A stretch of DNA of 64,000 nucleotides. It comes from an uncultured Phycisphaerales bacterium. GTDB taxonomy: Bacteria; Planctomycetota; Phycisphaerae; Sedimentisphaerales; Anaerobacaceae. The notes below the pieces were generated by a model. It saw only the letters and a list, made by a program, of their open reading frames with translations. It searched no databases and had not been told where the DNA came from. The DNA lies in the NCBI GenBank assembly GCA_937927975.1, contig CALEZT010000228.1, positions 3,487-67,486 on the forward strand, in the 5' to 3' direction. This document shows, piece after piece, positions 36,421 through 59,441 of the stretch. Every line of letters starts with the position of its first letter. The stretch's first letter is position 1. Made by a program: the position numbers and the translations under genes.

Positions 36421-37551
36421 CTACTTCGTTTCCTCTTCGTCGTCCAGCCGGTCACGATCGACCCTGGCCAGCACGATTCGTTCATAGGGATTCTGGTCTC
36501 CTGCCTCGAAAAGGCAGGCCAGAGCCCCGTCGGGCAACATGGCCAGGCAGGAATAGGCGGCCGGGCCCGGCCACAGGACCCTCTTGATCGGCCACGTCTT
36601 ACCTTCGTCCAGGCTCACACGAACGGTCATGTCCTGTCGTTTTGTCGTATGAGCCGGATTGGAGAAGGCCAGGCGAGACGGGTTCATCGTGCATCGGAGA
36701 AAGCCGGCCTGGCACACGGGTTCGATCAGAGCAGGATCGTGCCGAACGCCAGACCACGTGAGCCCGCCGTCGGCGCTGGTCGCCAGAGCACGGGTCGTCT
36801 GCGACCGGTCGTAGTTCCGCATGTTGATCAGAAGCGTTCCATCCGCGAGTTCGACGACCTGGCACTCGTTGACCGCCGGGCGAATGACGCCGCCCAACTG
36901 CCAGGTTTGACCGTGATCGTCGCTGTAGACGATGTGCGAACCGTAACCGTGCGGATCGTCGGGTTCGACGTAGCTGTGGTCGCACGGGATCACCAGTCGG
37001 CCCTTCCAGGGACCTTGCGTCAGTTGGATACCGACGCCGGGACCGGTGGCGTACCATCGCCACTCGGGGCGTTTGACCCGCGCGGTGATCTCCCGCGGCC
37101 GGGCCCACGTTCGACCATTGTCGTCGCTGGACGTGATGAAGACCCGACGGGTGTCCTTCGCGGCATTCTGCATGATCTGGCTTTCGGTGTCCTTGCCGTG
37201 ATTCCAGGTCAAGGGAAGCCAGATCGTGCCGGTGGTTCGATCCACCACAGGGCAGGGGTTTCCGCAGGTGTTTTCTCCATCATCCCATACCACCTGTTGG
37301 GGGCCCCAGGTTCTGCCGCCATCGGCAGATCGTTTCACAAGCACGTCGATGTCGCCGGCGTCGGACCGACTGCCTTTGCGCCCTTCGCAGAAGGCCAGAA
37401 GGGCGCCGTCTGGAGCGACGACCAGGGCGGGGATCCGGTAGGTGTGATAGCCGTCGCGGCCGCTGACGAAGACGTCGGTGAGTTGGGGATCGGCGACGCA
37501 GCAGAATGCGGATGCGACCAGGTAGAATGTAAGGTCTGTAACGAGTATCAC
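36421..37551 (-). CDS. Exported exo-alpha-sialidase (GH33-like)
   Basis: 376 aa with an N-terminal signal peptide. Six-bladed propeller with the sialidase F/Y-R-I-P motif (T-Y-R-I-P-A-L, about 38-44), which carries the first of the arginines that hold the sialate carboxylate, and five Asp-boxes (S-A-D-G-G-R-T-W, S-D-D-N-G-R-T-W, S-D-D-H-G-Q-T-W, S-A-D-G-G-L-T-W, S-L-D-E-G-K-T-W). The conserved E-G-R-K-G ... D-I-D is close to bacterial GH33 enzymes that release terminal sialic acid. It starts with GTG, sharing GTGA with the stop of the zf-TFIIB gene upstream, so the two are translationally coupled. Confidence 0.88.
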   Translation of the reverse strand: MILVTDLTFYLVASAFCCVADPQLTDVFVSGRDGYHTYRIPALVVAPDGALLAFCEGRKGSRSDAGDIDVLVKRSADGGRTWGPQQVVWDDGENTCGNPCPVVDRTTGTIWLPLTWNHGKDTESQIMQNAAKDTRRVFITSSDDNGRTWARPREITARVKRPEWRWYATGPGVGIQLTQGPWKGRLVIPCDHSYVEPDDPHGYGSHIVYSDDHGQTWQLGGVIRPAVNECQVVELADGTLLINMRNYDRSQTTRALATSADGGLTWSGVRHDPALIEPVCQAGFLRCTMNPSRLAFSNPAHTTKRQDMTVRVSLDEGKTWPIKRVLWPGPAAYSCLAMLPDGALACLFEAGDQNPYERIVLARVDRDRLDDEEETK

Positions 37552-38671: not shown

Positions 38672-40279
38672 ATGAATTGCAGAAGGATGCTTTGGCTTGC
38701 GGCTGCGCTGGTGTTGGCAGCGACCGGTGCGGGTATGGCCCAGGAACAACGCCAGGACTCGTGGGTCGCTCTTTTCGATCCGAATGTGCACAAGGACCTC
38801 GCGGGATGGTCCGTCCACAGCGGGACGGCCAGGTATCACGTCGAGGGCAATGAGATCGTCGGCACGACGGTCAAGGGCAGCCCCAACACGTTCCTCTGCA
38901 CCGAGCGGGAGTATGGCGACTTCGTCCTGGAGTTCGAGGTCAAGGTCGATCCACGGCTCAACTCCGGCGTTCAGATCCGCAGCCAGATCGCCCCGAAGGA
39001 GATGGCGTTCGTATTCCCCGATCGCGAGGGGAAGCCTCAGTCCCGCGTAATTCCCGCCGATCGCGTGTACGGCTACCAGGTGGAGATCGCCACGGAGAAG
39101 GCCGGCTCTTCCGGCAGCATCTACGACGAGGCGCGTCGCGCGGTCATGCTGGCCAGCACGAATGCGGATCCCGTTGCGAGCAAGGCTTTCAAGGACAACC
39201 AGTGGAACAAGTATCGGGTCGAGTGCAAGGGCGACCGGATCCGCACATGGATCAATAACGTGCCCTGCGTCGATCTGCGGGACAGCATGACCCTGCGAGG
39301 CGTGATCGGCCTGCAGGTGCATGGCATCGGAAACCAGGAAGGGCCATACGAGGTCCGCTGGCGAAATCTCCGCATCCAGGCCGCCGACGGAGGCGTCGAG
39401 CCGGTGGATATTTCCGGCCGCACGCGCGTGCTCCAGTGTACGCCGAAATGGACCGGGCCGCGGATGGCGGACGGACGGCCGCGAGTTTCGGACGATCTGA
39501 TCAAGCGGATGAGGAATGTGCCGATCACGATGGCCTGGAGCGTCGTCAGCAACGCGGGCTATCACAACTGCTATGAGACGGCGCTGGGCTGGCAAATCAT
39601 GCGTCCGGAAGAAGCGATTGTGGGTCGCGTGCTCACCGCGCAGTACATCCCCATGCAGCCGGACTTCAACAAGGCGATCATGGATCAGGGACACGCCGAG
39701 GGCCGGTTGGGCAACTCCAATTCCTGGCCGATCGACATGCTCCAGAAAGGCGATGTCTACGTCGCCGACGGGTTCGGCAAGGTGCTCGACGGCACTCTGA
39801 TCGGCGACAACCTGGGCAACGCGATCTACGCCAGGAGCGGCAACGGCGTGATCTTCAACGCAGGCGTTCGCGACCTGGAAGGGCTCGAAGAGATCGAAGG
39901 CTTCAACGCCTGGCACAAAGGCGCGGACCCGAGCTACCTCAAAGAAGTGATGCTCAGTGCGATCAACGTGCCCATCCGGATCGGTCGGGCGGTGGCCTGC
40001 CCAGGCGACGTGGTGCTGGCCAAACGAGAGGGAATCGTCTTCATCCCGGCTCACCTGGCGGAGAAAGTCGTCACCGAATCGGAGGCGATCACGCTCCGCG
40101 ACATGTTCGGGCATCGGCGGCTCAAGGAGGGCAAGTACACGCCGGGACAGATCGACAGCCGATGGACGCCCGAGATTCGCGAGGATTTCCGAGGCTGGCT
40201 CAAGCAGAACATCAACCAACTGCCGGTGCCCAGGGAAGTGATCGAGGAGATGCTCGATCCCAAGGCGAGGAACTGGTAA
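38672..40279 (+). CDS. Exported fusion of DUF1080 (3-keto-disaccharide hydrolase-like) and RraA-like domains
   Basis: 535 aa with a Sec signal peptide (ends G-M-A-Q). Residues about 28-240 form a DUF1080 jelly roll (W-V-A-L-F-D, D-L-A-G-W, F-E-V-K, N-S-G-V-Q-I-R-S, Y-E-V-R-W-R-N-L); some family members hydrolyse 3-keto-glycosides. Residues about 273-520 are RraA/HMG-aldolase-like: G-D-V-Y-V-A-D-G-F-G, G-D-N-L-G-N-A and N-A-G-V-R-D-L, with the Arg-Asp pair that handles substrate and metal. RraA-fold proteins include RNase E inhibitors and aldolases; export rules out the RNase role. GGAG stands about 7 bases before the ATG. First gene of a four-gene operon. Confidence 0.88.
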   Translation: MNCRRMLWLAAALVLAATGAGMAQEQRQDSWVALFDPNVHKDLAGWSVHSGTARYHVEGNEIVGTTVKGSPNTFLCTEREYGDFVLEFEVKVDPRLNSGVQIRSQIAPKEMAFVFPDREGKPQSRVIPADRVYGYQVEIATEKAGSSGSIYDEARRAVMLASTNADPVASKAFKDNQWNKYRVECKGDRIRTWINNVPCVDLRDSMTLRGVIGLQVHGIGNQEGPYEVRWRNLRIQAADGGVEPVDISGRTRVLQCTPKWTGPRMADGRPRVSDDLIKRMRNVPITMAWSVVSNAGYHNCYETALGWQIMRPEEAIVGRVLTAQYIPMQPDFNKAIMDQGHAEGRLGNSNSWPIDMLQKGDVYVADGFGKVLDGTLIGDNLGNAIYARSGNGVIFNAGVRDLEGLEEIEGFNAWHKGADPSYLKEVMLSAINVPIRIGRAVACPGDVVLAKREGIVFIPAHLAEKVVTESEAITLRDMFGHRRLKEGKYTPGQIDSRWTPEIREDFRGWLKQNINQLPVPREVIEEMLDPKARNW

Positions 40280-40320
40280 GACGACCGAATCAACCTGACT
40301 CGTATAAGGAAAGACACACG

Positions 40321-41682
40321 ATGAAGCAGCAGAAGCACGAGGCAGCCTGTTCGAGACGCTCTTTGTTCAGAACCGCCGGCGCGGGGTTTGCCGGCCTGAC
40401 GCTGGCAGGTTTGGTGGACGCGCCGATTGAGGAGCAGGTGGCGTGCGCCACGCAGAACATCTCTCGCAGTTCCAGTCCTTCGGAACTGCGGATCACCGAT
40501 CTTCGCATCGCAGTGGTCGGACGGGCGCCGATGCGATGTCCGCTGATCCGCATCGATACGAATCAGGGCATCTCCGGTTACGGCGAAGTCCGCGACGGGG
40601 CCAGCGAACGCTACGCGCTGATGCTCAAGGCCCGCCTGCTCCGGCAGAACCCCTGCAACGTCGAGCTGTTGTTCAAGCGAATCCGACAGTTCGGCGGTCA
40701 TGCCCGCCAGGGCGGGGGCGTCTCCGGCGTGGAGATGGCCCTGTGGGACCTTGCGGGCAAAGCCTATGGCGTCCCGGTCTATCAGATGCTCGGCGGACGC
40801 TATCGCGAAAAAGTTCGGCTGTACGCGGACACGCCCGACGGGCAGGTCACCGGCTTGAAGAAACGGATCGAGCAGGGATTCACGTTCCTCAAATACGATT
40901 GCGGAATCCGAAGCGTTCGCGACGTCCCCGGCGCGCTGACCTATCCGACCCGGGAGACCAACTGGCAGGGCAAGCACCCGTTCACCGGCATCCAACTGTC
41001 CGACAAAGGGGCGGCGTTGATGGCTGAGAAGTTCGCCGCGGTTCGGGAGGTGGTCGGGTGGGAAATCCCTGTGGCGTCGGACCATTTCGGCCATATAGAC
41101 GTCAACAGTTGCATCAAACTGGGCAAGGCGGTGGGACCGTATCAGTTGGCCTGGCTTGAGGACATGGTTCCGTGGGAATACACGGATATGCTCAAGGAGA
41201 TCAAGCATGCGATCGATGTCCCTCTGCTGACGGGCGAGGACATCTACACCCTCGACGGAGGCTTCAAGAAGCTGATCGACGAGCGTGCGATCGATATGGT
41301 GCACCCCGACCTGGCCACCGCGGGCGGCATCCTCGAAACCAAGAAGATCGGCGACTACGCCGAGGCTGCGGGCATTGCGATGGCACTGCATTTCGCGGGA
41401 ACGCCGGTGTCGTTCATGGCCAATCTGCACTGCGCCGCGGCGACGGAGAACTTCATCGCTTTGGAGCATCACTCAGTAGACGTCGAATGGTGGGAAGACT
41501 TGGTCGCCGGAGTCCCGAAGCCGCTTCATACAGGCGGTTTCGCCCGTGTGCCGGATGGGCACGGCCTGGGCATTGAGCTGAACCTGGACGTGCTCAAGGA
41601 GCATCTCGATCGCGGCTGCGAGCTGTTCGCGCCCACCGACGAGTGGAACCAGGATCGCTCCAACGACCGGCTCTGGAGCTGA
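40321..41682 (+). CDS. Tat-exported enolase-superfamily (mandelate racemase/muconate lactonizing) dehydratase
   Basis: 453 aa. Tat signal S-R-R-S-L-F-R-T-A-G-A-G-F-A-G. The capping domain is followed by the TIM barrel with F-L-K-Y-D, metal ligands Asp (A-S-D-H-F-G), Glu (W-L-E-D-M) and Glu (T-G-E-D-I), H-P-D-L-A-T-A-G-G and a late His (A-L-H-F-A-G). The arrangement resembles sugar-acid dehydratases such as galactonate or mannonate dehydratase. The substrate is not readable. The ATG at 40321 starts the Tat peptide; the gene follows the DUF1080-RraA gene by 41 bases. Export of this class is unusual outside Planctomycetes. Confidence 0.9.
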   Translation: MKQQKHEAACSRRSLFRTAGAGFAGLTLAGLVDAPIEEQVACATQNISRSSSPSELRITDLRIAVVGRAPMRCPLIRIDTNQGISGYGEVRDGASERYALMLKARLLRQNPCNVELLFKRIRQFGGHARQGGGVSGVEMALWDLAGKAYGVPVYQMLGGRYREKVRLYADTPDGQVTGLKKRIEQGFTFLKYDCGIRSVRDVPGALTYPTRETNWQGKHPFTGIQLSDKGAALMAEKFAAVREVVGWEIPVASDHFGHIDVNSCIKLGKAVGPYQLAWLEDMVPWEYTDMLKEIKHAIDVPLLTGEDIYTLDGGFKKLIDERAIDMVHPDLATAGGILETKKIGDYAEAAGIAMALHFAGTPVSFMANLHCAAATENFIALEHHSVDVEWWEDLVAGVPKPLHTGGFARVPDGHGLGIELNLDVLKEHLDRGCELFAPTDEWNQDRSNDRLWS

Positions 41683-41800
41683 CCGGCTTTCGCCTTGGGC
41701 TCATACGCAATGAATTTGGCAGACACGGCTCAATGCCGACGTTGACGAAATACGTGGTGTCACGAAGGATGGGTTTGAACGAGAACTTAGGAGTGCGATC

Positions 41801-42793
41801 ATGCAAAATCAAGCACAAACCAGAGAACGACGAACAATGTCCCGCCGGGAGTTACTGGGCGGCGCGGCGGCAGTGGCAGCTCTCGCCATGGCGCCGAATG
41901 GCGTGTTGAAAGACGCTGCGGCCCAGCCTGCGGGCAAGCCCAACTCCAATTTCGGCGGCGTCCAGATCGGAACGATCACCTACAGCTTCCGCGGCCTGCC
42001 CGGCTCGGCCGAGGACATTCTCAAGTACGTCGTTCAGTGCGGGATCAGCTCAATCGAGTTGATGGGCGAGCCCGTCGAGCAGTTCGCGGGAGTTCCCACC
42101 GGGCCCCGTGGCGGCCGACGCGGGGAGATGACCGACGAGCAGCGAAAGGCGATGGACAAGAGTGTTGCAGATCAGCTCCAGTGGCGCGTGTCGGCACCGA
42201 TGGACAAGTTCCAGGCCCTTCGCAAGCTGTACAACGACGCAGGCGTCAACATCCACATCGTCAAGTTCGGCAACATCGGCGACCGCAATATGACCGACGG
42301 CGAAATCGATTACTACTTCCGAATCGCCAAGGCGCTGGGGGCCAGGGGCATCACTCGCGAACTCTCGGAAGAGGCCGCCAAACGACTGGGCCCCTTTGCG
42401 GACAAGCACGAGATCATGATCGGCTTCCACAATCACACGCAGATGACGCCTACGACCTACGAGGGATCGATGCTTTCGTACGGGAAGTACCTGGGCATCA
42501 ATTTCGACATCGGCCACTATGTCGCCGGCACGAACCGTTCGCCGATTCCCATCATCGAGAAATATCACGACCGGATTCTCAGCCTCCACCTGAAGGACCG
42601 CAAGATCAACAACGGTCCGAACATGCCGTTCGGGCAGGGCGATACGCCGGTGGCGCTGGTGCTCCAGTTGCTCAAGAGAGAGAAGTGGCCCATCCCGGCC
42701 GACATCGAGCTGGAGTACCCGGTCCCGCAGGACTCCGACCCGGTCGCCGAGACGGCCAAGTGCGTCCAGTTCTGCAAACAGGCGTTGGCCTGA
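41801..42793 (+). CDS. Tat-exported sugar isomerase/epimerase (AP-endonuclease 2 TIM-barrel family)
   Basis: 330 aa. Tat signal S-R-R-E-L-L-G-G-A-A-A-V-A-A. The TIM barrel is of the xylose-isomerase-like type: G-I-S-S-I-E-L-M-G-E-P at the start, I-G-F-H-N-H-T (metal ligands), F-D-I-G-H-Y, L-S-L-H-L-K-D-R and a late I-E-L-E-Y. Such proteins epimerise or isomerise sugars; in planctomycetes they occur with DUF1080 proteins, and some are linked to 3-keto-sugar pathways. TAGGAG stands 8 bases before the ATG. It lies 118 bases after the dehydratase gene and 46 before GH31. Confidence 0.9.
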   Translation: MQNQAQTRERRTMSRRELLGGAAAVAALAMAPNGVLKDAAAQPAGKPNSNFGGVQIGTITYSFRGLPGSAEDILKYVVQCGISSIELMGEPVEQFAGVPTGPRGGRRGEMTDEQRKAMDKSVADQLQWRVSAPMDKFQALRKLYNDAGVNIHIVKFGNIGDRNMTDGEIDYYFRIAKALGARGITRELSEEAAKRLGPFADKHEIMIGFHNHTQMTPTTYEGSMLSYGKYLGINFDIGHYVAGTNRSPIPIIEKYHDRILSLHLKDRKINNGPNMPFGQGDTPVALVLQLLKREKWPIPADIELEYPVPQDSDPVAETAKCVQFCKQALA

Positions 42794-42839
42794 TCGACGT
42801 TGCGGTACCTGCACGGGATCTGTTCTATAGAAGGCGGCA

Positions 42840-45266
42840 ATGAGAAGGTCTTTGCGTGTTCTGGCTGTTGTAGGCGTTCTTACGTTTTCACAGTTCGCTG
42901 GCGCCGCCGGTGCCGAGTCGATCGATTTGACGCTCGGCACCGGCGATATCCTTCGCGTCGAGCCTGTGGCTGCCGGCATCCTTCGCGTTCGAGTGGGGCC
43001 CAACGCTCGATTTGAACGCTCGCTGATGGAACGCTACGGCATCGTCCGGACCGAGTGGCCTGCGTGCGAGGCTTCGGTTCGCGAAGAACCGGAGGTCACG
43101 CGAATTGCCACCGGCGCCGGGGCATTGGAGGTCCGTCGCAGCGACGGACGGATGCGGCTTCTCGACTCGCAGGGCAAGACGCTCTGCGAGGGCATTACGC
43201 CTCAGCTTTCCCGCATGAGTGGGGCCTCGCTGGAGGCGTTCAAGACGCGACAGGCCGCGATGGCGGAGTATTTCAAGGGGGAGAAACGCAAGGGCGGCCA
43301 GATCCAGATCATCGGCGCCGTGTCGCAGGATAAGGCCGAGCACTCTGAGGTCATGCACGAGTTCGACCTGCCGAACAACTCCTTCGGCGCGACCTTCAGT
43401 ATCCGCGACGACGAGCGTTTCTACGGTTTGGGGACTGCCTCTTCCCACCGTCTTCAACTGCGTGGTCACGGTTATCGGCTTTGGACCCAGTACCGAGGCA
43501 ACTTCGGGTATAGCGGAAGGCCGGGCGGTTGGGAGCAGACCGAAGGCCCGATCCCCCTCTTGCTCAGCACGGGCGGCTGGGGGATCTTCGTGAACACCAC
43601 CTGGGTCCACTACTACGACATCGGCCGGTATGAGGCGGACAAGATGTTCTTCTGGGGTCCCGGCGGGCAACTCGACTTCTACCTGCTGATCGGCGACAAG
43701 CTGCCCAAGCTGATCGACTTGTATACCGAGATCACGGGCAAACCGCGTCTCTTGCCGCTGTTCGGCTATGGCCTGACCTACGTCGGCCAGATCACGCAGA
43801 ACGAGCATGAGATCTGCAACGACGCCAGGCTCTTTCGCGACAAGGGCATCCCGTGCGATCTCATCGGCCTCGAGCCGCAGTGGATGAAGAAGAACTACGA
43901 CACGTCACATGAGAAGGAGTGGAACCCGGACAAGTTCTATATTCCTTCCTGGATGGGCCCGGACTCCAAGAACGGCACCTTCATCGGCGGGCTGGATCGT
44001 ATCGGCTTTAAGCTCTCGCTGTGGCTGGTCTGCCGGGACGATCTGACCGTGGAGGAGGAGCGGCAGGTCGCGATCCGGGAGGGACGAGGCAAGGACTTCC
44101 CGCCCAAGCCTGATGCGTGGTTCAACCACCTTCAGAAGTTCGTCCGAAACGGCGTTCGCGCCTTCAAGATGGACCCGGAGAACCTCATTCAGGAGCATCC
44201 CGACTGGAAGTACTACAACGGCCGCTGCGACCTGGAGAATCACAACCTGACGCAAGTCCTCTATCACAAGCAGATGTGCCTGGGCTACGAGCAGTTCACG
44301 AATCGCCGCGCGATGACGCACTACTGCGCCGCGTGGGCCGGCGTGCAGCGATGGGGCGCAACCACGATGGGCGACAACGGCGGGGGCCCGAAGGCCCTCG
44401 TCTGGATGCTCAACTACGCCATGAACGGGCATATGAACACCTCGTGCGATATGCAGACCTCGAGCCAGGGCCTCCATTTCGGATTCCTCCAGCCCTGGAG
44501 CCAGCACAACAACTGGGCCTACACGACGCAGCCCTGGTTCCTGGGCAAGCAGAGCGAGGCGATCTACAGGGACTACGCCCGCCTGCGGTACAGCCTGATC
44601 CCGTACATCTACTCGGCCGCCCACGTTGGGCATCTCACATCGATGCCGATCCTGCGGCCGATGCCCCTAGCGTTCCCTGACGACCTGCGGCTCAGCGACT
44701 GCACGACGCAGTACATGCTGGGCGACAGCCTGTTGGTGACCGCGTTCACGGACAAGGTGTCCCTGCCCGCCGGACGCTGGATCGATTACTGGACGGGGGC
44801 CGTGCACATGGGCCCGAAAGAGATGCCGTTGGCCTATCCCAAGAACCGGGCGGGAGGCCTGTTCGTGCAGGCCGGCGCGATTCTCCCTTACTGGCCTGTG
44901 ATGGATTACGTTGGCGAACAACCCGCCGAGACGCTGACGCTGCATGTGTATCCCGAGGGCAAGAGCGAGTACACGCTCTACGAGGACGATGGCGACTCGC
45001 TGGAATACCTTAAAGGAGCCGTCGCTCGCACGCAGATCCGCTGTGACGCGAGCTCCAGACAGGTGACGCTGACGATCGATCCCCGCCAGGGCTCGTACCG
45101 CGGCATGCCTGCGACGCGGAGCTACGAGGTGCGGGTCCACATCGCTGAGCCGAAGTCTGTGACAGCGGCCCAGTGGAGCTACGATCCTCACACCAAGACC
45201 GTGTGCGCGGCTGTCAAAGAGGACCCGCAGCGCAACACGCCAATCGTCATTCAATGCGATCTGTGA
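42840..45266 (+). CDS. Secreted GH31 glycosidase (alpha-glucosidase/alpha-xylosidase type)
   Basis: 808 aa with a Sec signal peptide (A-G-A-A-G-A-E). N-terminal beta-sandwich, then an (alpha/beta)8 barrel with the nucleophile Asp445 in F-K-M-D-P-E and the likely acid/base Asp512 in M-G-D-N-G-G-G, and C-terminal beta domains. GH31 enzymes remove terminal alpha-glucose, alpha-xylose or alpha-galactose with retention, or act as lyases or sulfoquinovosidases. The nucleophile context differs from the common D-(M/F)-x-E form, so the substrate may not be glucose. Its stop abuts that of the MFS gene on the other strand, with no base between. Confidence 0.92.
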   Translation: MRRSLRVLAVVGVLTFSQFAGAAGAESIDLTLGTGDILRVEPVAAGILRVRVGPNARFERSLMERYGIVRTEWPACEASVREEPEVTRIATGAGALEVRRSDGRMRLLDSQGKTLCEGITPQLSRMSGASLEAFKTRQAAMAEYFKGEKRKGGQIQIIGAVSQDKAEHSEVMHEFDLPNNSFGATFSIRDDERFYGLGTASSHRLQLRGHGYRLWTQYRGNFGYSGRPGGWEQTEGPIPLLLSTGGWGIFVNTTWVHYYDIGRYEADKMFFWGPGGQLDFYLLIGDKLPKLIDLYTEITGKPRLLPLFGYGLTYVGQITQNEHEICNDARLFRDKGIPCDLIGLEPQWMKKNYDTSHEKEWNPDKFYIPSWMGPDSKNGTFIGGLDRIGFKLSLWLVCRDDLTVEEERQVAIREGRGKDFPPKPDAWFNHLQKFVRNGVRAFKMDPENLIQEHPDWKYYNGRCDLENHNLTQVLYHKQMCLGYEQFTNRRAMTHYCAAWAGVQRWGATTMGDNGGGPKALVWMLNYAMNGHMNTSCDMQTSSQGLHFGFLQPWSQHNNWAYTTQPWFLGKQSEAIYRDYARLRYSLIPYIYSAAHVGHLTSMPILRPMPLAFPDDLRLSDCTTQYMLGDSLLVTAFTDKVSLPAGRWIDYWTGAVHMGPKEMPLAYPKNRAGGLFVQAGAILPYWPVMDYVGEQPAETLTLHVYPEGKSEYTLYEDDGDSLEYLKGAVARTQIRCDASSRQVTLTIDPRQGSYRGMPATRSYEVRVHIAEPKSVTAAQWSYDPHTKTVCAAVKEDPQRNTPIVIQCDL

Positions 45267-46667
45267 TCAGTCTTTGACGCCGAGGCGCTTCTGGAGTTCC
45301 TCGAGCGAAACGCCCTTGGTCTCAGGGAGATACTTCCAGACCAGGACGAACTGCACGACCATCATGACCGCGAAGAATACGAACGCCGGAGCGGCCGATG
45401 TGCCTGCCGCGGCGGGGTCGGTCGGCTTGCCGGCGACGATGGGGAAGCCCCACGTCACGCCGATGCACAGCAGCCAGATCAGGAAGCACGCGGCGGCCGA
45501 GCCGGACGCGCGGACCGCGTTAGGCAGCAACTCGTTGATGATGACCCAGACGACCGCGCCCTGCGAATAGGCGTGCGAGCCGACGATTCCCATCATCGCG
45601 ACCAGGACGATCCAGCCTTGGGCGTGCGTGTGGAACACCCAGGCGGCCAGGGCGTGCGAGAGGACGAAGGTGACCGAGCCCGCCAGCAGGAGCGACTTGC
45701 GGCCCACGCGGTCGATCACCGCCATCGCCAGGACGGTCATGACGAGGTTCGTCAAGCCGATGATGACCGACTGCTTCAAGGCGCTGGTCTTGTCCATACC
45801 GGCCATGCGGAAGATGTCCGTCGTATAGTAGATGACCGCGTTGATGCCGTCCAACTGGTTGAACGCGGCGATCATGGCGGCCAGCAGGAGCGGCTTGAGG
45901 TACTTGCGCTGCAACAGGCTCTGGCGGCCCTGCGCGAGGTCGGAGGCGAGCGATGCGGAGATCTCGGCCACCTCGCCCGCGGGATTCTCATGGCCGAACC
46001 GGTCCAGGACGTCCTCGGCCTGGGAGCCACGTCCCTTTTTGACCAGCCAGCGAGGGCTCTCGGGGATTCGCAGGGAGGCGATCAGAAACGCCATGGCGGG
46101 AATCGCTTCCACGCCAAACATCCACCGCCACGCATTCGGGTGATCTGCCCCCATCGCACGCGCCACGAAGTAGTTCGAGAAGTAGGCGGCCAGGATGCCC
46201 ACGACGATGTTCAACTGGCTGACCGCCACGAGCAAGCCGCGACGTCGAGGAGGAGCGATCTCGGTGATGTACATCGGAGACACGACGGAGGCCCCGCCGA
46301 CTCCGATGCCGCCGAGCCAGCGGAAGAACAGCAGCGACCACCAATTCCACGCCAGGCCGCACCCGACGGCCGACACCACGTAGAAGCCAGCCAGCGCCGT
46401 CAGCACGGGTCGCCGGCCCCATCGATCGGAGAGACGGCCCACCAGCAGCGCGCCGAACAAGGTCCCGATCAGCGCGCTGGCGACGGTGAAGCCTTTGAGA
46501 CTGTCGCTGAGCGAGTATAGTTCCTGCAGTCTCTCTGTCGTACCGGCGATCACCGCAGTGTCGAACCCGAAGAGGAACGATCCGAGCGCCGCGATGACCG
46601 CGCTGGTCAGCAGCAGGGCGCCGCCCGGCGGGGTATGCGCCTGGTTCTGTCTGATGGATGCATCCAT
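45267..46667 (-). CDS. MFS sugar-porter transporter
   Basis: 466 aa, 12 membrane segments expected. Sugar-porter signatures: G-F-D-T-A-V-I-A-G in TM1, R-L-S-D-R-W-G-R-R-P in loop 2-3, P-E-S-P-R-W-L after TM6, D-R-V-G-R-K-S in loop 8-9 and P-E-T-K-G-V-S-L at the end. It should import a mono- or disaccharide with protons or sodium. It starts 4 bases after the GH38 stop and is the last gene of the minus operon. It is paralogous to the transporter at 55491. Confidence 0.94.
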   Translation of the reverse strand: MDASIRQNQAHTPPGGALLLTSAVIAALGSFLFGFDTAVIAGTTERLQELYSLSDSLKGFTVASALIGTLFGALLVGRLSDRWGRRPVLTALAGFYVVSAVGCGLAWNWWSLLFFRWLGGIGVGGASVVSPMYITEIAPPRRRGLLVAVSQLNIVVGILAAYFSNYFVARAMGADHPNAWRWMFGVEAIPAMAFLIASLRIPESPRWLVKKGRGSQAEDVLDRFGHENPAGEVAEISASLASDLAQGRQSLLQRKYLKPLLLAAMIAAFNQLDGINAVIYYTTDIFRMAGMDKTSALKQSVIIGLTNLVMTVLAMAVIDRVGRKSLLLAGSVTFVLSHALAAWVFHTHAQGWIVLVAMMGIVGSHAYSQGAVVWVIINELLPNAVRASGSAAACFLIWLLCIGVTWGFPIVAGKPTDPAAAGTSAAPAFVFFAVMMVVQFVLVWKYLPETKGVSLEELQKRLGVKD

Positions 46668-46671
46668 GGTC

Positions 46672-49365
46672 CTATGGACTCCCTTTCAACGGTGTTGATA
46701 TGACGAAGCTGGCCGGGGCGAACGCGGCGAGATTCACAGTGAAATGGCCCTCCTTCACAGGTAGCGGCTCTCCGTTCGGTTCGCCGCGAAGGTTCACCGG
46801 CTGAATGCTCTCGATATCGAGTGTCTTGGGCAACTGAACCCGGCAGGGGCCTGTTTGCCCTGCACACTCCCAGAGCCGAATCACGATGCCCGATCCGTCA
46901 GGATTGGGGCCGAACGCGGTAACCAGCGTGCCGCGGGTCGAGAGTTCCAGACCGCTCTGAACGAGGGGCAAGGCGCCGGCCTTTCCATCCGACGCCGTTG
47001 CCAGCAAGGGATACCTCGCTTCGAGCGAGGGCGTGATCAGGCTGGACTCTGCGTCGAATCCGTCGAGCGCCCAGAGCCGAATGCGAGCGGTCCAGGTCCC
47101 TTCGTTCCAAAGGCGGAAGTTCGTCGTCCACTGATTGTTGAAGAGATTGATGAAAGCGACGGGCTTATGCGGTGCGAAGTCCCGCGAATACCGCCAGAGT
47201 CCGGGCCGGTCGAGGCTCACGAGCGGATTGTCGAGCGGGCAGATCCCCATGCCGCGGCCTTGGCGGTCGGTGATCGTCAGGCCCGTGTGAACGGCCTGGA
47301 CATCGAGGTTGGAGCCCCGGACAAAATCGCGCGCCGGGTCTGCGATGCCGCCCAATCGACCCAGGCGAAACTGCGGCTCAGTCGCGTTGACCGGCAGGCA
47401 GACCCATCCGGCCTCCGGCCAGTTGTCCGCCAGCTTGTCGTGGACAGTTACCTCCAAATCAATGAAGGGCTGGTTTGCGCGGAGAGTCACGCGGGTTGTC
47501 ACGGGATGGGGTATGGCCGATGACGGCTCCGCACACATCGTGGTTGAGACAGACACAGCGGATTGCGTCACCTGGAGGGTCCCGAATCGAGGCGACGAAG
47601 CCCGATAAGGGACCTCGCTCGCTGTCGGCATGGCGGGCTTGCCCAGCTCGGCTTGCGCCCAGTCGGAGTCGTTCTTCACATAGGCTCGGACATAGGCCGC
47701 GACCTGATTGGCGTCGAAACGCTCGTAGAGGTATTGGCCGAGGGTATAACTGGAGTCCGGATCCACCATCTCACGCCCGGTTCGCTTGTCCACCACGGAG
47801 CGAATCCCCCCTCGGTCGCGGTCCAGCGTGACCTTGAGGAACTCGTTCTCGATGACCCCAGCCTGTGGATCGCTTCGCAGGTCATTGCGTGTCTCGGTCG
47901 TCTCAGTGGGAACGAAGGTGCGGTAGCCCATCGCGGGGATATCCCGGGCAATGAAGCAGAAACCGTCGCCCTCCGACGCCACCGATATGGAAGGGTCTCC
48001 ACCGGTCGGTCGCAGTGCAGAGAGGCTCAAGCCGGCCGACTTTATCCGCACGACACCATGTCGGGACCAAGGAAGGGGATTGAACACGACGACGCGTGGA
48101 CCGTCGCGACTCACGCCAGTGGCCAGGGTATGCATGGCGCTCTCGACGAGAGGGGCGATCTCCTGCTGAGCTTGCTCGATGTAGCGAGTGTGCTGTGCCC
48201 AGGACTGCTCCAGTCTCTCGAACCGCTCCGCGGCACGATCTGCTTTCCAAGCGTCGCCGTAATCCCACTTGAGGTCTTTGCCGTACCTCGTGACCCAGTA
48301 CAAGGCGCCGCCCCAGGTGTGCTCGCCGTAGAGCAACCTACCTTCGCGAGCCCGCGCGATGCGGCTGGCCCAATCCGCATCCGGCATGGGCCGGTTCCAG
48401 ATACCGAGCAGGGTGATCAGCGATTCGATGGTGTCCAGTTCAGGCCGGAGATTGCGGGCGATCTTCGCCCCGGCAGGATCGCACATCGGGCCGTGGATCC
48501 AGGTGTCCGGCATGTCGCCGCGGATGACCGGGATCTGAGGTGTTTCCGCGAGAATCGCGTCGGAGAAGTCCGACAGCCGTCCGATGCGGACCTTCACGCC
48601 GGGGAGTCTCTCCGCTGCCTGGGCAAGAAGCTGTCTGACCTCTTCAGGGGTGGGCGGGCCGTGATTGTCGCCTGTGTGCTGGACGACCAGCCAGGTGCGA
48701 TAGGGCCAATCCACGGGCGGAACCAGGCCCGTCCCGTATCCGGAGGCCGAGTACATCGTCAGCAGACGCGAGCCGTCGGGGCCTTCCCACCAGAACAGGA
48801 GCGGAACTTCAGGCGAGCTGCTGGCCGAATTGCAGCCCAGGTGCAGGAACTCGATGCCGGCATGTCGGAGCAGCGTGGGGAGGATCCACGAATGGCATGG
48901 AACGTCGGTCATCTTGGCGTCTCGCGGGAGAGCCAAGCCGAGCTCGCGAGACAGCCTGGATGCGAAGCCGAGCCCCCGCACGAGGTCCTCAGGCTCCAGC
49001 AGTTCGGTGTGCGTCGTGAACGGCAACCCGTGGACCACGAAGCGACCGTCTTTCATCGCCTGAAGAACCCGGGCCTTTCGGCTCGCAGTCTGGCCCGGCC
49101 AATCTTCCGCAATCTTGCTCATTGGCCAGCCGGGGACGGTCCAGACGAATTGCTGCTCCGGCGGCAGAGCCCGGCTGCGATCGGCCACATCGAGGGCCTG
49201 ATCGATCATCGTCGTGCGGTAGCGGTCGACGACGACGCTTGGAAGGTCCGTGTAGCCGATGTCGAAGTGGGTCTTGAATGTGACGATCACCTCGCGGATC
49301 TGAGCCGGCGCCGCGGTCGGCAGGACCAGTCCCGACAGCACCGCCAGTGCGAGAAGCTGTCTCAT
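46672..49365 (-). CDS. Exported GH38 alpha-mannosidase-like protein
   Basis: 897 aa with a Sec signal peptide (M-R-Q-L-L-A-L-A-V-L-S-G-L ... A-P-A-Q). The GH38 zinc-site motif appears as T-H-F-D-I-G-Y-T, and the following T-D-V-P-C-H-S-W region holds the likely nucleophile Asp. Y-G-E-H-T-W-G-G is a further family motif. GH38 enzymes remove alpha-mannose from glycans. The ATG at 49365 overlaps the stop of the upstream gene as ATGA; the longer frame to 49575 only runs through that gene. The divergent sequence suggests a substrate other than classic N-glycan mannose. Confidence 0.88.
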   Translation of the reverse strand: MRQLLALAVLSGLVLPTAAPAQIREVIVTFKTHFDIGYTDLPSVVVDRYRTTMIDQALDVADRSRALPPEQQFVWTVPGWPMSKIAEDWPGQTASRKARVLQAMKDGRFVVHGLPFTTHTELLEPEDLVRGLGFASRLSRELGLALPRDAKMTDVPCHSWILPTLLRHAGIEFLHLGCNSASSSPEVPLLFWWEGPDGSRLLTMYSASGYGTGLVPPVDWPYRTWLVVQHTGDNHGPPTPEEVRQLLAQAAERLPGVKVRIGRLSDFSDAILAETPQIPVIRGDMPDTWIHGPMCDPAGAKIARNLRPELDTIESLITLLGIWNRPMPDADWASRIARAREGRLLYGEHTWGGALYWVTRYGKDLKWDYGDAWKADRAAERFERLEQSWAQHTRYIEQAQQEIAPLVESAMHTLATGVSRDGPRVVVFNPLPWSRHGVVRIKSAGLSLSALRPTGGDPSISVASEGDGFCFIARDIPAMGYRTFVPTETTETRNDLRSDPQAGVIENEFLKVTLDRDRGGIRSVVDKRTGREMVDPDSSYTLGQYLYERFDANQVAAYVRAYVKNDSDWAQAELGKPAMPTASEVPYRASSPRFGTLQVTQSAVSVSTTMCAEPSSAIPHPVTTRVTLRANQPFIDLEVTVHDKLADNWPEAGWVCLPVNATEPQFRLGRLGGIADPARDFVRGSNLDVQAVHTGLTITDRQGRGMGICPLDNPLVSLDRPGLWRYSRDFAPHKPVAFINLFNNQWTTNFRLWNEGTWTARIRLWALDGFDAESSLITPSLEARYPLLATASDGKAGALPLVQSGLELSTRGTLVTAFGPNPDGSGIVIRLWECAGQTGPCRVQLPKTLDIESIQPVNLRGEPNGEPLPVKEGHFTVNLAAFAPASFVISTPLKGSP

Positions 49366-52300
49366 GGTTTGAACTCCACACGGAGCGCAACCAACCCGCA
49401 GGCGGGGACATCGACCGGTCCGGAGACCGACTTGCCTGCCCGTTCGCTCGTGTCGCTCAGGAACGTCGCGGCGGGTTTGCGGCCGCTCCACTTCAGTCGA
49501 GCGGAACGGGCCTGATCCGATGCGCCAAATAGACGCACGATCAGCGCCCGGCCGTCGTCGCTGGGTTTCAGGCAAGTCACCAGGACGTCCGCGGGTTCAA
49601 CCGTCAGCAGGGGTCTGGCTGCGGGGCTCTTGCCAGCCGCCGGCGCGACGAGTAGCGGCTGACTGAAACCGGTGGCGAATCGCGAGGCTTCCGCGGCATC
49701 CGCCTTGCGATGCGGACGCAGGACGAAGCGGAACACGGTCGGGCCTTCCTGGTAGGCGCGGTAATTGGTGCCCCAGTGATTGTTCATCGCCCATGAATAG
49801 AGCGTCTGCGTCGGCTCGACGCACGCTCGCCAGACGTTCGGATCGGTCTGCGAGTTGAGGAGGGTGGCTGTCAGCCCGCCCACCTGGAGCAAGGGGGCGT
49901 CGAGCGTCACCCAGGTGATGCCGCGATCTGCGTTCGACACGTCGGCCCAGCGGCCCACGGTGAACCAGTTCTTGCACGCGCTGGCCATCTGGTCGGCCTC
50001 GGGACGCATCACGCCCAAGGGAATATCCAGGAGCATCTCGCCATCGGGCACCGCGAAAGGGAACGCGAAGTTGACGCTCTCTTTGCCTTCTCTGGCGTGG
50101 TAGCTCCTGGCCTGGAGGCGCTCCTTATCGACTGTGTTGATGATCTCGACGTAGTCGAGGCCTGCAACGACCCGCAGTTCACGCGTGAGCTTCTTGCACC
50201 CTGGGGCGGGCGACTCGATCACGAGCGACGCCACGAGGGGCCCTGCTTCGCCGGTGCGAATCGTCACGGCGTCATTGTGCCGAAGGCCCTTGAGATCATC
50301 TCCGATCAGGTAGAGGTAATCGTTCAAGGCCTCGTCTTCGCTGGTGTCGGCGAAGTTGCCATCGACGCCTTTGACCATCAGTTCGACGATACCGCCTGTC
50401 TTCTCATCCACTCGCAGGCAGACGGCTCCATTGGTCAGCGTCGGGCCCTGTGCGGCGGCCTGGCTCGCGACGTGCGATTGGCCCTCGGTCACTCTGTAGC
50501 GTCGGGAGGCGAAAGGCGGCATGTCTTTGGCGAGGAAGACCAGTTCGCCCGAGGCGAGTCGCTGCGAGGGAACCCGTCTACCCTTGTCGTCGCGAACGAG
50601 GTCTCCGCCAAGAGAGAGCGATTTCGGAACAGTCACCAGTTCCGTTCGCGGCCAAGAGGTGGTGTTGAACACGTCGATTGCCTTCGCGCCGCCAGTGTCG
50701 GCGTTTCCGAGCGATGCGTCAAGCAGATCGCGGGACTGTTTGTCGGCCGCTTCCGCGTAGCTCCGCTTGATTTCCCATTGTTCGAGTGTTTCCTTTCGCT
50801 CGGGCTCGCTGACGCTGCACCAGGCGCCCCAGGTGTGCTCGGAGTACAGCAGAACGCTGTTCCACGCGTCCTCGAAGGCCGCGGTCGGGTACTTAGCGGG
50901 CCGGAGCATCGCAAAGAGGGCCTCCGCCTGGGCGAGTCGGTCGGAGCTGGCCCGGTTCATCGCCGTCTCCAGGGCCGAGGAGCCCGCACCGTCCTCCCAG
51001 TAGGGCGTCCAGTCGCCTCGCGCGTGGGGCAACTGATCGCCGTATCGCGTCTCGAACGCGCGGAAGGCCTCGCCTGTACCGCAGATGACGAATCGCGGCC
51101 AGGCGTATTTCGCGTTCCAGTCTCGGACGAACTCGCAGATGGCCGGATCGGGCACCGCGTTGTCCCCGTGGCCGCTCCAGCGGACGTAGGCGATGTCAAA
51201 CGGGTAATTGCGTTTCTCCAGGCCGTCGGAGAAGTCCTCGACGAGCCGAGCGGACATCTTGCCGTAGCGGTGGGACATCGCGTAGCCCCAGAAGGGGATC
51301 CAGACGAGCACTTTCGAGCGGCCGTCGGGTCCGACCCAATAAAAGGGCTTGTTTTCCCATTCCCGCAGGATGGTGCCGATGCGATCGAAGTAGTTCGGCG
51401 CGACGGAGAAGTAGCGAATCCCGGCCTGCGCCATCGCGGTGACCGTGCCCCAGGTGTAGCCCGGGACGTCGGAGATCATGGCCGAGTCGATGGTTGCGCC
51501 GGTCTTCGCGGCCAGCTCCGTCGAGTACTTGAAGAGACGGACCAGCTCTTCCGGCCGGCACAGGCCCGTCAGCTCGTTGAGGTACATGCCGTTGAGGACG
51601 ACTTGGCCTTTGGCGACCGCGTCGAGGAAATCCGCCCGCTGCTGGTCGTCGAGCCGTCGCAGGTAGAGATCCGCCGCCCAAAGCACCTCGACGTTCCACA
51701 CGAAGCGGGCTCCCTCGGGATAGTCCGCGGTTCGTTTGGCGGCGGCGATGCCGTCCACGAGGTTCTGCACCTGCCTGGCCTCGATGGCGGTCTGGATCTC
51801 GGTGTAGCCGATATCGGTGTGCGAGTGCGGCGTGATGTAGACGGTCAGCTTCTTCACCGGTTTCAGGACGATCTCTCGCGATGCGACCGTCTTGCCGTCT
51901 ATGGCGACAATGACGGTCTGCTTCGTATCCGTCTGCACGTCGGGGGCCGCCAGTTCCACGTGCTGTGAGCCTTTGGCGAGCCGCAGGGGGACGGGGCGTC
52001 CATCGCCCAAGCGCACCTGAGCGTCGGCCTCGTCGCCGAAGTGGCGCACGCTGACGGTGACAGGCTGAACCATTCGCCCGTCACGGTCTTCCAGGGCTCG
52101 CATGGGCCTGGCCTGCTCGATGAGCGTTCGCGACTGGACATCGATCAAAGCGAGCCTCTCGGAGGCGATCAGCTCCACCGAGTCGTAGAGCATCCAACTG
52201 CCCCTGAGACTCGTGATAAGGATCTCATTGTCGCCAGCCTTCAAGGTCTCGGCGGGAAACGCGATTTCGAGCGTTCTCCTGGCGCCTTTCGCTGGTTCTC

Positions 52301-53972
52301 CGTTCACCGAGGCGTCGCCCGCACCGGCCGGCAGCGACCGTTCGAACGATTTGCCATTGATCTCGATCCGCGCGGTCGGCGGGCCGGAGCTGTGCGTGTC
52401 GAGAAGGTGGACCGCCAGACGGCAGTCGCCTGCGGTCGGCGCTGTGGCGAGTCCGAAGAGCACGACAAACGTGTGGCTTCGGGCGCCCGCCCAGGCATCC
52501 GAGGGGCCTGGGTGCGCGTAGGGCCAGTCCTTCCTGGGATCTGAACTGCCGACGACGTAGAACCCGTCGCTTTCATACTGCCCCCAGCCGCGCGGGGCCA
52601 GGGCGAACTCGGCGTTGTCTCCGTCGGTCTCGCCGATCCGCCAGAGGACAGCGGATGAATCCTGGTGTTCCTTCGCCCAGGCGAGCAACTCCACGATTGC
52701 GATTCCCAGGACACCCGCCGAGCCGCGGTATTGTCCGGAGCCTCGCGGCTGATTGTCCCTGGACCACCACTCGTAGAAGTCGCCATGGCGGAGCACCCGG
52801 CTGGTCATCGGGGTCAACTCGCGGTAGGCGTCTTCGATCAGGCCGTGGCGGATCAGTTGGCGGATCATACGGCCGCCGAACCAACACCAGTCGCCGCCGT
52901 TCTGATAGGAGTAGGGCCCCATCGCGGGATTCTTGAAGGTGCCCTGGGGATAGGGCGGGTAGAGCGTCAGGCCGATGGAGCTTGCGCCGGCTTGTCGGAC
53001 GTTGTCCTTCATCTGGCGGAGCGAATCCGCGATCTCCTCCTGTGTGAGGAGTCCCGCCTCGATGGCGACCGCGGTGCCGCCATGATAGTAGACCGCCGCC
53101 TCATCGAACGTCTCGGGGAAGGGGGAGCCTTCGAGATAGACGTGGGGCCGGAACTTGCGGCGGTCGGCGTCCCAGAGGTGCTTCCGCACGTTGGCCCGAA
53201 GATCGTCGCGCATCTGTCGCCAGCGGGCGGCCTGGGCGGCTGCGTCGCCCACGAGCGAGAGGTAATCGTCGATAGCGACCAGGAACATGGCGTTGTCGTA
53301 GATGTCGATCGCGCGGTGCGAATCCTCGTTGAGTTCGACGCCCCATTCGTGCTCAGGCTGGACGTCGCCCCAGTCGGTCGTGGTTGCGCCCCAGACGAGG
53401 CCGTGTTCTTCATCGAAACGATGAGTGCCCACGTAGTCGAGGGCTTTCGCGAGACGCTGTCGCACGGCGACACCGTCAACGCGTTCATCGAGAAAGGCGG
53501 TGTCCTTTGTGATCGCGACGTACCTCCGCACCGCCTGCACCAGCGACGACTCCTGGTCGGTCTCCACGGTGTTCTTGTGCGCCAGCAGGTCAGGCGCCAG
53601 GGCCGACTGGCGGTACTTGTACGCGACGTTGGCCTGCGCCTTCGGGATGTATCCGTCGGGGATGTTGCCATCGTCGCCCTGGAATTTGAAGAAAGTCAAC
53701 AAGGCCTCGCGGATCGACCGGGGATCGTTCACCTTCAACGACATTTCGATGAAGGTGTTCAGGTCGCGGATCCAGACTTCGCCGTAGCCGCTGCCGGCGG
53801 TGAACCCGGTCTTGAGCAGGCTCTCGGCCTTGGTCAGGACCGCAGGCAGATTCGGATCGTCCAGGATCCGTTTGGCCAGCGAGGAGGCCGGCTCCCGGGC
53901 TGAGGCTGCGAGCGTGCCGGCCGAGAGTGCAAACGTCAGGAGAAGGAGACGGATGATCGGTGTGTGCGACAT
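49362..53972 (-). CDS. Exported six-hairpin glycosidase-like / GH38 fusion, 1536 aa
   Basis: Signal peptide (L-L-L-L-T-F-A-L-S-A-G), then an (alpha/alpha)6-barrel glycosidase-like region of about 30-470 (V-W-I-R-D-L-N, W-G-V-E-L-N-E-D, D-I-Y-D-N-A, W-C-W-F-G-G-R), a beta-rich linker (470-700), and a GH38-like domain from about 705 to the end: H-S-H-T-D-I-G-Y-T (zinc ligands, about 712), I-S-D-V-P-G-Y-T-W-G with the likely nucleophile, and Y-S-E-H-T-W-G-A-W. The frame is continuous. The W-I-R-D motif recalls GH125 alpha-1,6-mannosidases and debranching enzymes, but I cannot assign the family. AGGGG stands 8 bases before the ATG. First gene of a three-gene operon with the second GH38 and the MFS. 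Confidence 0.88.
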   Translation of the reverse strand: MSHTPIIRLLLLTFALSAGTLAASAREPASSLAKRILDDPNLPAVLTKAESLLKTGFTAGSGYGEVWIRDLNTFIEMSLKVNDPRSIREALLTFFKFQGDDGNIPDGYIPKAQANVAYKYRQSALAPDLLAHKNTVETDQESSLVQAVRRYVAITKDTAFLDERVDGVAVRQRLAKALDYVGTHRFDEEHGLVWGATTTDWGDVQPEHEWGVELNEDSHRAIDIYDNAMFLVAIDDYLSLVGDAAAQAARWRQMRDDLRANVRKHLWDADRRKFRPHVYLEGSPFPETFDEAAVYYHGGTAVAIEAGLLTQEEIADSLRQMKDNVRQAGASSIGLTLYPPYPQGTFKNPAMGPYSYQNGGDWCWFGGRMIRQLIRHGLIEDAYRELTPMTSRVLRHGDFYEWWSRDNQPRGSGQYRGSAGVLGIAIVELLAWAKEHQDSSAVLWRIGETDGDNAEFALAPRGWGQYESDGFYVVGSSDPRKDWPYAHPGPSDAWAGARSHTFVVLFGLATAPTAGDCRLAVHLLDTHSSGPPTARIEINGKSFERSLPAGAGDASVNGEPAKGARRTLEIAFPAETLKAGDNEILITSLRGSWMLYDSVELIASERLALIDVQSRTLIEQARPMRALEDRDGRMVQPVTVSVRHFGDEADAQVRLGDGRPVPLRLAKGSQHVELAAPDVQTDTKQTVIVAIDGKTVASREIVLKPVKKLTVYITPHSHTDIGYTEIQTAIEARQVQNLVDGIAAAKRTADYPEGARFVWNVEVLWAADLYLRRLDDQQRADFLDAVAKGQVVLNGMYLNELTGLCRPEELVRLFKYSTELAAKTGATIDSAMISDVPGYTWGTVTAMAQAGIRYFSVAPNYFDRIGTILREWENKPFYWVGPDGRSKVLVWIPFWGYAMSHRYGKMSARLVEDFSDGLEKRNYPFDIAYVRWSGHGDNAVPDPAICEFVRDWNAKYAWPRFVICGTGEAFRAFETRYGDQLPHARGDWTPYWEDGAGSSALETAMNRASSDRLAQAEALFAMLRPAKYPTAAFEDAWNSVLLYSEHTWGAWCSVSEPERKETLEQWEIKRSYAEAADKQSRDLLDASLGNADTGGAKAIDVFNTTSWPRTELVTVPKSLSLGGDLVRDDKGRRVPSQRLASGELVFLAKDMPPFASRRYRVTEGQSHVASQAAAQGPTLTNGAVCLRVDEKTGGIVELMVKGVDGNFADTSEDEALNDYLYLIGDDLKGLRHNDAVTIRTGEAGPLVASLVIESPAPGCKKLTRELRVVAGLDYVEIINTVDKERLQARSYHAREGKESVNFAFPFAVPDGEMLLDIPLGVMRPEADQMASACKNWFTVGRWADVSNADRGITWVTLDAPLLQVGGLTATLLNSQTDPNVWRACVEPTQTLYSWAMNNHWGTNYRAYQEGPTVFRFVLRPHRKADAAEASRFATGFSQPLLVAPAAGKSPAARPLLTVEPADVLVTCLKPSDDGRALIVRLFGASDQARSARLKWSGRKPAATFLSDTSERAGKSVSGPVDVPACGLVALRVEFKP

Positions 53973-56894: not shown

Positions 56895-57010
56895 AGAGCC
56901 TCCACGCAATCCATGCCGACCCCCACGGGCGGACACGAAGCCGCCGTGCCAGGGGATCGCGTCAGCATACCACAGGTCGCGGGCAAAGGACAATCGCATT
57001 CATGGGGCGG

Positions 57011-59403: not shown

Positions 59404-59441
59404 CCGTCGATCGATTGAGTCGCATCGGAGTTGTTGTCTTC

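Follow-up and report, generated by a model that had tools for sequence, protein, structure and literature searches.

Exported-looking sugar-acid enzymes in a planctomycete gene cluster: a candidate extracytoplasmic route around an RraA-fold protein

Four genes with putative export signals

We use a combination of domain searches, structural alignment and comparison of gene neighborhoods to study a cluster of four genes in a 64,000-nucleotide stretch of DNA (the window) from an uncultured Phycisphaerales bacterium. The cluster occupies positions 38672-45266 of the plus strand and consists of four open reading frames separated by gaps of 41, 118 and 46 bp (Table 1), the close same-strand arrangement that an original prediction, made from the letters alone, had described. 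Pfam places the four products in the families which that prediction had named: a fusion of DUF1080 and RraA domains (PF06439 and PF03737, the former at 134.5 bits against a cut-off of 26.8), an enolase-superfamily acid-sugar dehydratase (here ENO), a protein of the AP-endonuclease fold (here AP) and a GH31 glycosidase. The ATG start of ENO at 40321 sits within a longer open reading frame.

The signals claimed for these proteins can be read from the translations: the fusion and GH31 begin with Sec-like N-termini, while ENO and AP carry putative twin-arginine (Tat) motifs (SRRSLF and SRRELL, respectively). These motifs are conserved in relatives. The arginine pair occurs in 42 of 44 members of the ENO cluster, the two exceptions (L044 and L045) being fragments, and RRx[LFIM] occurs in 116 of 119 AP relatives. 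For RraA, a home-made signal rule finds a signal-like N-terminus in 79 of 84 sequences compared with 2 of 240 internal control pieces; it lists six misses among all 86 RraA sequences, one of which (L010) begins at a contig end. The rule is a weak one, since among 798 neighboring background genes it scores 323 as Sec and 58 as Tat and, among the partner proteins described below, calls Tat in 26 of 32 DgaE-like proteins and in 4 of 31 RidA proteins although those RidA sequences that were inspected carry the arginine pair. We take its outcome as consistency with export of RraA and not as proof. It is possible that uncleaved signals keep such proteins attached to the membrane.

How widespread is the RraA part of the fusion? 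A scan of 84,980 species genomes gives at least 525 confirmed relatives, of which we keep the best 80 as loci; together with the window these make up a table of 81 loci that represents the close end of the family, and many of the stretches stop at contig ends. Phylum labels come from the titles of the sequence records; L016 and L022, whose titles say only 'bacterium', are grouped with the planctomycetes, and the non-planctomycete group includes L049 (Acidobacteriota) and L069 (Rhodothermia). Both domains are found in 108 of the 120 best homologues listed, and most of the remaining listed homologues consist of RraA alone (about 323-341 residues) and are 75-80% identical across the RraA part. 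Within the 80 loci, DUF1080 is fused to RraA in 14 (L001-L013 and L017), all from planctomycete taxa; elsewhere, including in Bacteroidota, RraA stands alone.

The RraA domain belongs with the RraA-like or HMG/CHA class II aldolases: it has the PF03737 domain and the fold of that family, and it carries the D-X20-R-D motif (D379, R400, D401), the metal and pyruvate motif of HMG/CHA aldolases, which is invariant in all 86 RraA sequences. In a structural alignment, RraA is 20% identical to the Pseudomonas putida HMG/CHA aldolase (3NOJ). Data on mutants of R123 of that enzyme are given in PMC5065237. The predicted structure of the whole fusion has a mean pLDDT of 52.4, too poor to read how DUF1080 packs on RraA.

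ENO has the N- and C-terminal MR_MLE domains of the enolase-superfamily acid-sugar dehydratases, and D254, E280, E306 and H357 are kept in 44 of 44 cluster members; we assume that the three acidic residues are metal ligands and that H357 is the catalytic histidine. It falls short of the NCBIfam equivalog cut-offs for galactonate, mannonate, gluconate/galactonate, arabinonate and rhamnonate dehydratases, with a best score of 185.7 bits against the 311 needed (galactonate dehydratase). Scoring below every listed cut-off, it is assigned no named substrate here.

Conserved neighbors and co-occurrence

Single-linkage clusters of neighboring genes were built at 25% identity across 60% of the length of the longer protein (with gene calls in GC-rich loci made by a home-made rule), and Pfam was run on example members of each cluster. 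An SBF/BASS sodium symporter is present in 58 of the 81 loci, ENO in 38 and a DgaE-like PLP lyase in 32. The two enzymes are nearly exclusive of one another: 37 loci have ENO alone, 31 have the DgaE-like lyase alone, one has both and 12 have neither. Median gaps are 63.5 bp between RraA and ENO (36 pairs), 12 bp between the symporter and RraA (33) and 54 bp between ENO and the symporter (23). The conserved core is not the four-gene set but the exported-looking RraA, the Tat-type ENO and the SBF/BASS symporter, in both Planctomycetota and Bacteroidota. ENO comes after RraA or flanks it in planctomycetes and in a good part of the Bacteroidota loci. Five loci (L060, L069, L071, L074 and L080) each hold two paralogous RraA-ENO pairs, the second ENO of L069 being cut by the end of the stretch, as if the pair had been duplicated jointly.

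A UxuA-type D-mannonate dehydratase with an arginine-pair motif adjoins RraA or ENO in L009, L012, L013, L017 and L069, and in L007 it comes after the symporter. The partners of RraA are unrelated, exported-looking enzymes (enolase-superfamily dehydratases, UxuA and DgaE-like lyases) whose known relatives yield 2-keto-3-deoxy sugar acids. Four neighbors are found in non-planctomycete loci only: an amidohydrolase (32 loci), the DgaE-like lyase (32), RidA (31) and a GSDH-cytochrome c protein (28), the last in 28 of the 32 DgaE loci. SGL lactonase genes flank seven loci (Pfam-tested in three). The GSDH-cytochrome c protein, the amidohydrolase, RidA and the lactonase are the sort of enzymes required for the upstream steps of an aldonate route.

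Membership of the symporters in SBF/BASS is clear from PF01758, which scores 134.6 bits in L002 and 149.5 bits in L043; the nearest solved structures to the L043 protein are 4N7W and 3ZUX, and the relatives' proteins (235.3 and 256.2 bits) do not reach the cut-off of 400 of the PanS model NF047939. Five DgaE loci have no SBF/BASS gene, and four of these (L035, L046, L047 and L078) have a TRAP transporter instead, with DctP, DctQ and DctM confirmed in L035. In the fifth, L027, neither transporter is seen, and L062 has both. In the two nearest relatives of the window, L001 and L002, the symporter gene lies between ENO and AP. The window is without that gene: both outer edges of its ENO-AP junction align to L001 and L002, and a central piece of about 60 bp aligns poorly. 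This is as expected if the gene was lost by deletion, unless the assembly is wrong at 41683-41800. The symporter is a main clue to the product of RraA and ENO, and it was invisible to the original prediction because the window lacks it.

Now we consider whole genomes. In 118 genomes from the order of G003, the genome that holds L003 (cut-offs 1e-40 for RraA and AP, 1e-80 for ENO and the symporter), RraA is found in 11, ENO in the identical 11, and the symporter in 15 that include all 11 (Fisher test 1e-15, with phylogeny ignored). Eight of the 11 RraA-positive genomes had already supplied loci, so that the positives are not independent of the 80 loci and the new information comes mainly from the 107 genomes lacking RraA; at the cut-off used, ENO is absent from all of these. 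A second sample consists of 199 Flavobacteriaceae genomes (cut-off 1e-60), among them G007, the home of L043; RraA is found in 17, the DgaE-like lyase in 12 and ENO in 12. One or other of the two partners is present in 16 of the 17 RraA-bearing genomes compared with 1 of the 182 others (Fisher test 1.8e-21, phylogeny again ignored). These genomes hold 33 RraA copies, with ENO within 5 kb of 12 and the DgaE-like lyase within 5 kb of 10. The other 11 copies were fetched as a test: nine adjoin another enolase-superfamily gene (three Pfam-confirmed), eight of the nine being 68-79% identical to members of the earlier ENO cluster and one 26%. Another RraA, exported-looking, lies within a hexuronate cluster on contig 7 of G007 (L121), beside a PfkB kinase, a KDPG/KHG aldolase, UxaC and UxuA; one of the 11 fetched copies (in L122) is without any such partner.

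A candidate route and its alternatives

In known non-phosphorylative Entner-Doudoroff metabolism, an enolase-superfamily dehydratase acts on an aldonate, and an aldolase then splits the resulting 2-keto-3-deoxyaldonate into pyruvate and an aldehyde; chemistry of this type is considered cytoplasmic. From the observations above we infer what the enzymes act on and how, where they sit, and what is transported in which direction. We cautiously favor a route of the same kind that would run beyond the inner membrane, in which an aldonate would become a 2-keto-3-deoxyaldonate and this in turn pyruvate plus an aldehyde, with import of an acid. The fusion and ENO genes would then represent, in planctomycetes, a conserved pathway for sugar acids that operates outside the cytoplasm. 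ENO, exported by Tat, would dehydrate an aldonic acid to the 2-keto-3-deoxyaldonate, which the exported RraA-fold enzyme, working as a metal-dependent, HMG/CHA-type pyruvate aldolase, would cut to pyruvate and an aldehyde. In other loci the adjacent SBF/BASS symporter (or TRAP, in some loci without it) would import a resulting acid, and in planctomycetes the aldolase may bear a DUF1080 domain for binding or hydrolysing glycan. The window would have lost the symporter gene, with AP and GH31 as attached feeder enzymes.

Comparison with described systems makes the proposal easier to place. It shares with the Entner-Doudoroff and aldonate dehydratase/aldolase pathways the order of dehydratase then aldolase; those pathways are cytoplasmic and use unrelated aldolases, whereas here both enzymes carry putative export signals and the candidate aldolase has the RraA fold. 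The D-glucosaminate pathway (DgaE/DgaF) likewise has a DgaE-type PLP lyase, by an amidohydrolase, that feeds an aldolase. In contrast to it, we see no sign of phosphorylation, the lyase is Tat-type, an RraA-fold protein would replace the KDPG-type aldolase, and the lyase of L043 scores under both DgaE models (TIGR01437, 198.6 of 385.3; NF047797, 164.4 of 600). Unlike the P. putida HMG/CHA aldolase (PMC5065237), the RraA proteins here look exported and have neighbors suggestive of sugar acids rather than of an aromatic pathway. A search of the literature, mostly without subscription papers, brought up no paper recognizable as dealing with RraA aldolases that are exported or with RraA alongside BASS. 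The enzyme families are individually familiar; as far as this search tells, what would be new is an exported aldonate-to-pyruvate route paired with a symporter.

Several observations weigh against this route. Pyruvate-forming cleavage beyond the membrane looks wasteful, and we know of no activity for this RraA clade. Neither ENO nor the DgaE-like lyase is in view at 12 of the 81 loci; two of these (L004 and L006) stop at RraA and one (L020) has an ENO truncated by the contig end, which leaves nine with none in view. The symporter is not in view at 11 ENO loci (the window and ten others). In 8 of the 11 RraA genomes of the order sample ENO is adjacent to RraA; G304 has the two on different short contigs, and in G279 and G293 they lie at a distance from each other. 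The symporter adjoins one or the other in 8 of 11. At the motif that reads D-M-H-G in the L060 paralogue and 2QQ6, ENO shows D-H-F-G, a difference that, with the missed NCBIfam cut-offs, counts against naming its substrate. Finally, there is the cargo. In favor of the route, plant BASS2 transports pyruvate and BASS5 transports 2-keto acids, according to PMC10645422; the same paper reports that ASBT-NM, among the closest BASS proteins to have been studied, binds pantoate and not ketopantoate, which its authors attribute to Asn265. The L043 symporter retains the equivalent asparagine. This weakens the case for pyruvate, and a hydroxy acid would be as likely a cargo.

The export and the transport could also stand with a different reaction at RraA. 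FlDet, an RraA-family protein of the alginate-using Flavobacterium UMI-01, also acts on a 2-keto-3-deoxy sugar acid, as a 2-keto-3-deoxyhexarate dehydratase/decarboxylase and not as an aldolase, which itself counts against the favored route; by term counts, 'signal peptide' and 'periplasm' do not occur in the main text of the report (PMC8563752). If RraA were of this type, ENO would act on an aldarate, RraA would form alpha-ketoglutarate semialdehyde and CO2, and the transporter would import that or a related acid. Aldarate dehydratases do exist within the enolase superfamily, with NCBIfam families listed for them. Yet from general knowledge of the chemistry, the DgaE-like partners of the 31 loci without ENO would yield 2-keto-3-deoxygluconate, a monocarboxylic acid lacking the second carboxylate that such a reaction needs, and the UxuA partners also indicate 2-keto-3-deoxygluconate, so we regard this alternative as unlikely. 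More unlikely still is that RraA is exported but is no sugar-acid lyase at all (a scaffold, for instance), its link to ENO reflecting joint transfer of neighbors. PDB titles do call RraA proteins, that of E. coli among them, inhibitors of RNA processing, and the patchy spread, with RraA in just 2 of 248 genomes of a class sample (G003 being one), fits gene transfer; such a role must be set against the invariant metal motif, the existence of paired RraA-ENO paralogues and the replacement of ENO by unrelated enzymes of equal expected product. Control of RNase E would be out of keeping with an exported protein, and we dropped it as a role because the RraA N-termini keep their signal-like sequence.

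Between these two in plausibility, and in our view improbable, is a reading built on the original prediction, that the four genes co-evolved as one extracytoplasmic pathway in which a glycan or 3-keto-glycoside is opened by GH31 and DUF1080, modified as a sugar by AP and ENO and finally cleaved by RraA. All four genes do lie together in the window. Within the stretches compared, the four-gene order, which was to be sought in relatives, recurs in only one of the 80 loci, L002, where GH31 is cut by the contig end and the symporter is interposed between ENO and AP. AP is next to the RraA-ENO unit in L001 and L002 only, GH31 is absent from the L001 stretch, neither protein is matched at E 1e-4 in the remaining loci, and the fusion of DUF1080 is confined to the 14 loci given above; we therefore ruled out the set as a conserved system. 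What speaks for a link is that AP relatives are found in 14 genomes of the order sample, nine of them among the 11 with RraA, and that a Tat-type Gfo/Idh/MocA oxidoreductase gene lies immediately upstream of the fusion in L002. The same type adjoins AP relatives in L104, L106 and L107 (G003, G304 and G223), on contigs separate from RraA; in the other seven of ten fetched AP loci that protein has no match. According to PMC9007349, a 3-ketotrehalose hydrolase and an endo-xanthanase/lichenase are among the DUF1080 proteins, which in some bacteria are associated with hydrolysis of 3-keto-glycosides; the paper describes a periplasmic 3-keto-glycoside route in which an exported DUF1080 protein takes part in sugar breakdown. 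That route needs a sugar 3-dehydrogenase, and in the window two Gfo/Idh/MocA queries give no match (E up to 1e-10, over 120 residues; other dehydrogenase types were not searched); here, moreover, DUF1080 is fused to an aldolase-fold domain. A 3-keto-glycoside step is possible, and exported chemistry of this sort may feed the RraA-ENO core in some relatives. The original prediction was right in its core, an exported-looking dehydratase followed by an RraA-fold lyase suited to sugar acids, and wrong in the extent of the system.

As for the two accessory enzymes themselves, many E, D and H residues are invariant across the 119 AP relatives. The aspartate of the GH31 FKMD motif aligns, in a weak stretch of 11.8 bits, with the 6JR6 aspartate for which 6JR8 has alanine, and because this residue is kept, GH31 is probably active.

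A broader claim can be built on the favored route: that a widespread, undescribed module exists in which unrelated exported enzymes make non-phosphorylated sugar acids, a new class of exported RraA-fold 2-keto-3-deoxyaldonate aldolase cuts these to pyruvate on the outer side of the inner membrane, and sodium-driven import is limited to small acids. This is a possibility that we take seriously without quite believing it; were it true, RraA-fold aldolases would be a common hub. If dehydration and cleavage both take place outside the inner membrane, the cell would import one small acid in place of many sugars, a simpler transport problem when glycans are complex. The proposal would offer a function open to testing for a large set of exported proteins that are now named RNase E regulators or 4-hydroxy-4-methyl-2-oxoglutarate aldolases, would account for the Tat-type enolase-superfamily dehydratases of Planctomycetota and Bacteroidota, and suggests a cargo to test for bacterial BASS symporters.

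Transcription signals and surroundings of the cluster

The four genes had been described as lying after one promoter, which the data do not bear out: a sigma-70 consensus scan for an operon promoter gives 0 sites (shuffled sequences give a mean of 1.7). An Rfam scan at the cluster gives 0 matches and a terminator scan yielded nothing useful. The spacing of the genes suggests that they may be co-transcribed.

Table 1. Coordinates of the gene cluster and its adjoining features in the window.
Feature	Position	Strand	Remarks
DUF1080-RraA fusion	38672..40279	+	Sec-type N-terminus; DUF1080 38762-39379, RraA Pfam core 39593-40039
D379-X20-R400-D401 motif of the RraA domain (metal/pyruvate)	39806..39874	+	Aligned to D102, R123 and D124 of P. 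putida HMG/CHA aldolase (3NOJ)
ENO, enolase-superfamily acid-sugar dehydratase	40321..41682	+	PF13378 and PF02746; Tat-type signal
ENO-AP intergenic junction	41683..41800	+	Place of the SBF/BASS gene in both nearest relatives
AP, xylose-isomerase-like (AP_endonuc_2, PF01261)	41801..42793	+	Tat-type signal; accessory
GH31 alpha-glycosidase	42840..45266	+	Sec-like N-terminus; GH31 domains and DUF5110; accessory
MFS sugar porter	45267..46667	-	Convergent; also adjoins AP in L001 (93% identical)

Around the cluster the window holds further genes. Upstream, on the opposite strand, is a BNR_2 sialidase-like protein (36421-37551, minus). A second MFS sugar porter (55491-56999, minus) is 50% identical to the one in Table 1, and between the two porters lie two adjoining GH38-type alpha-mannosidase-like genes (46672-53972, minus), the larger of which also has a region like domain III of polysaccharide lyase family 4. 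Farther away, a single long open reading frame (14441-17593, minus) fuses alginate lyase, heparinase II/III C-terminal and BNR_2 sialidase-like domains, and a radical SAM protein with SPASM and SEC-C motifs (59415-60689, plus) presumably resembles sulfatase-maturing enzymes.

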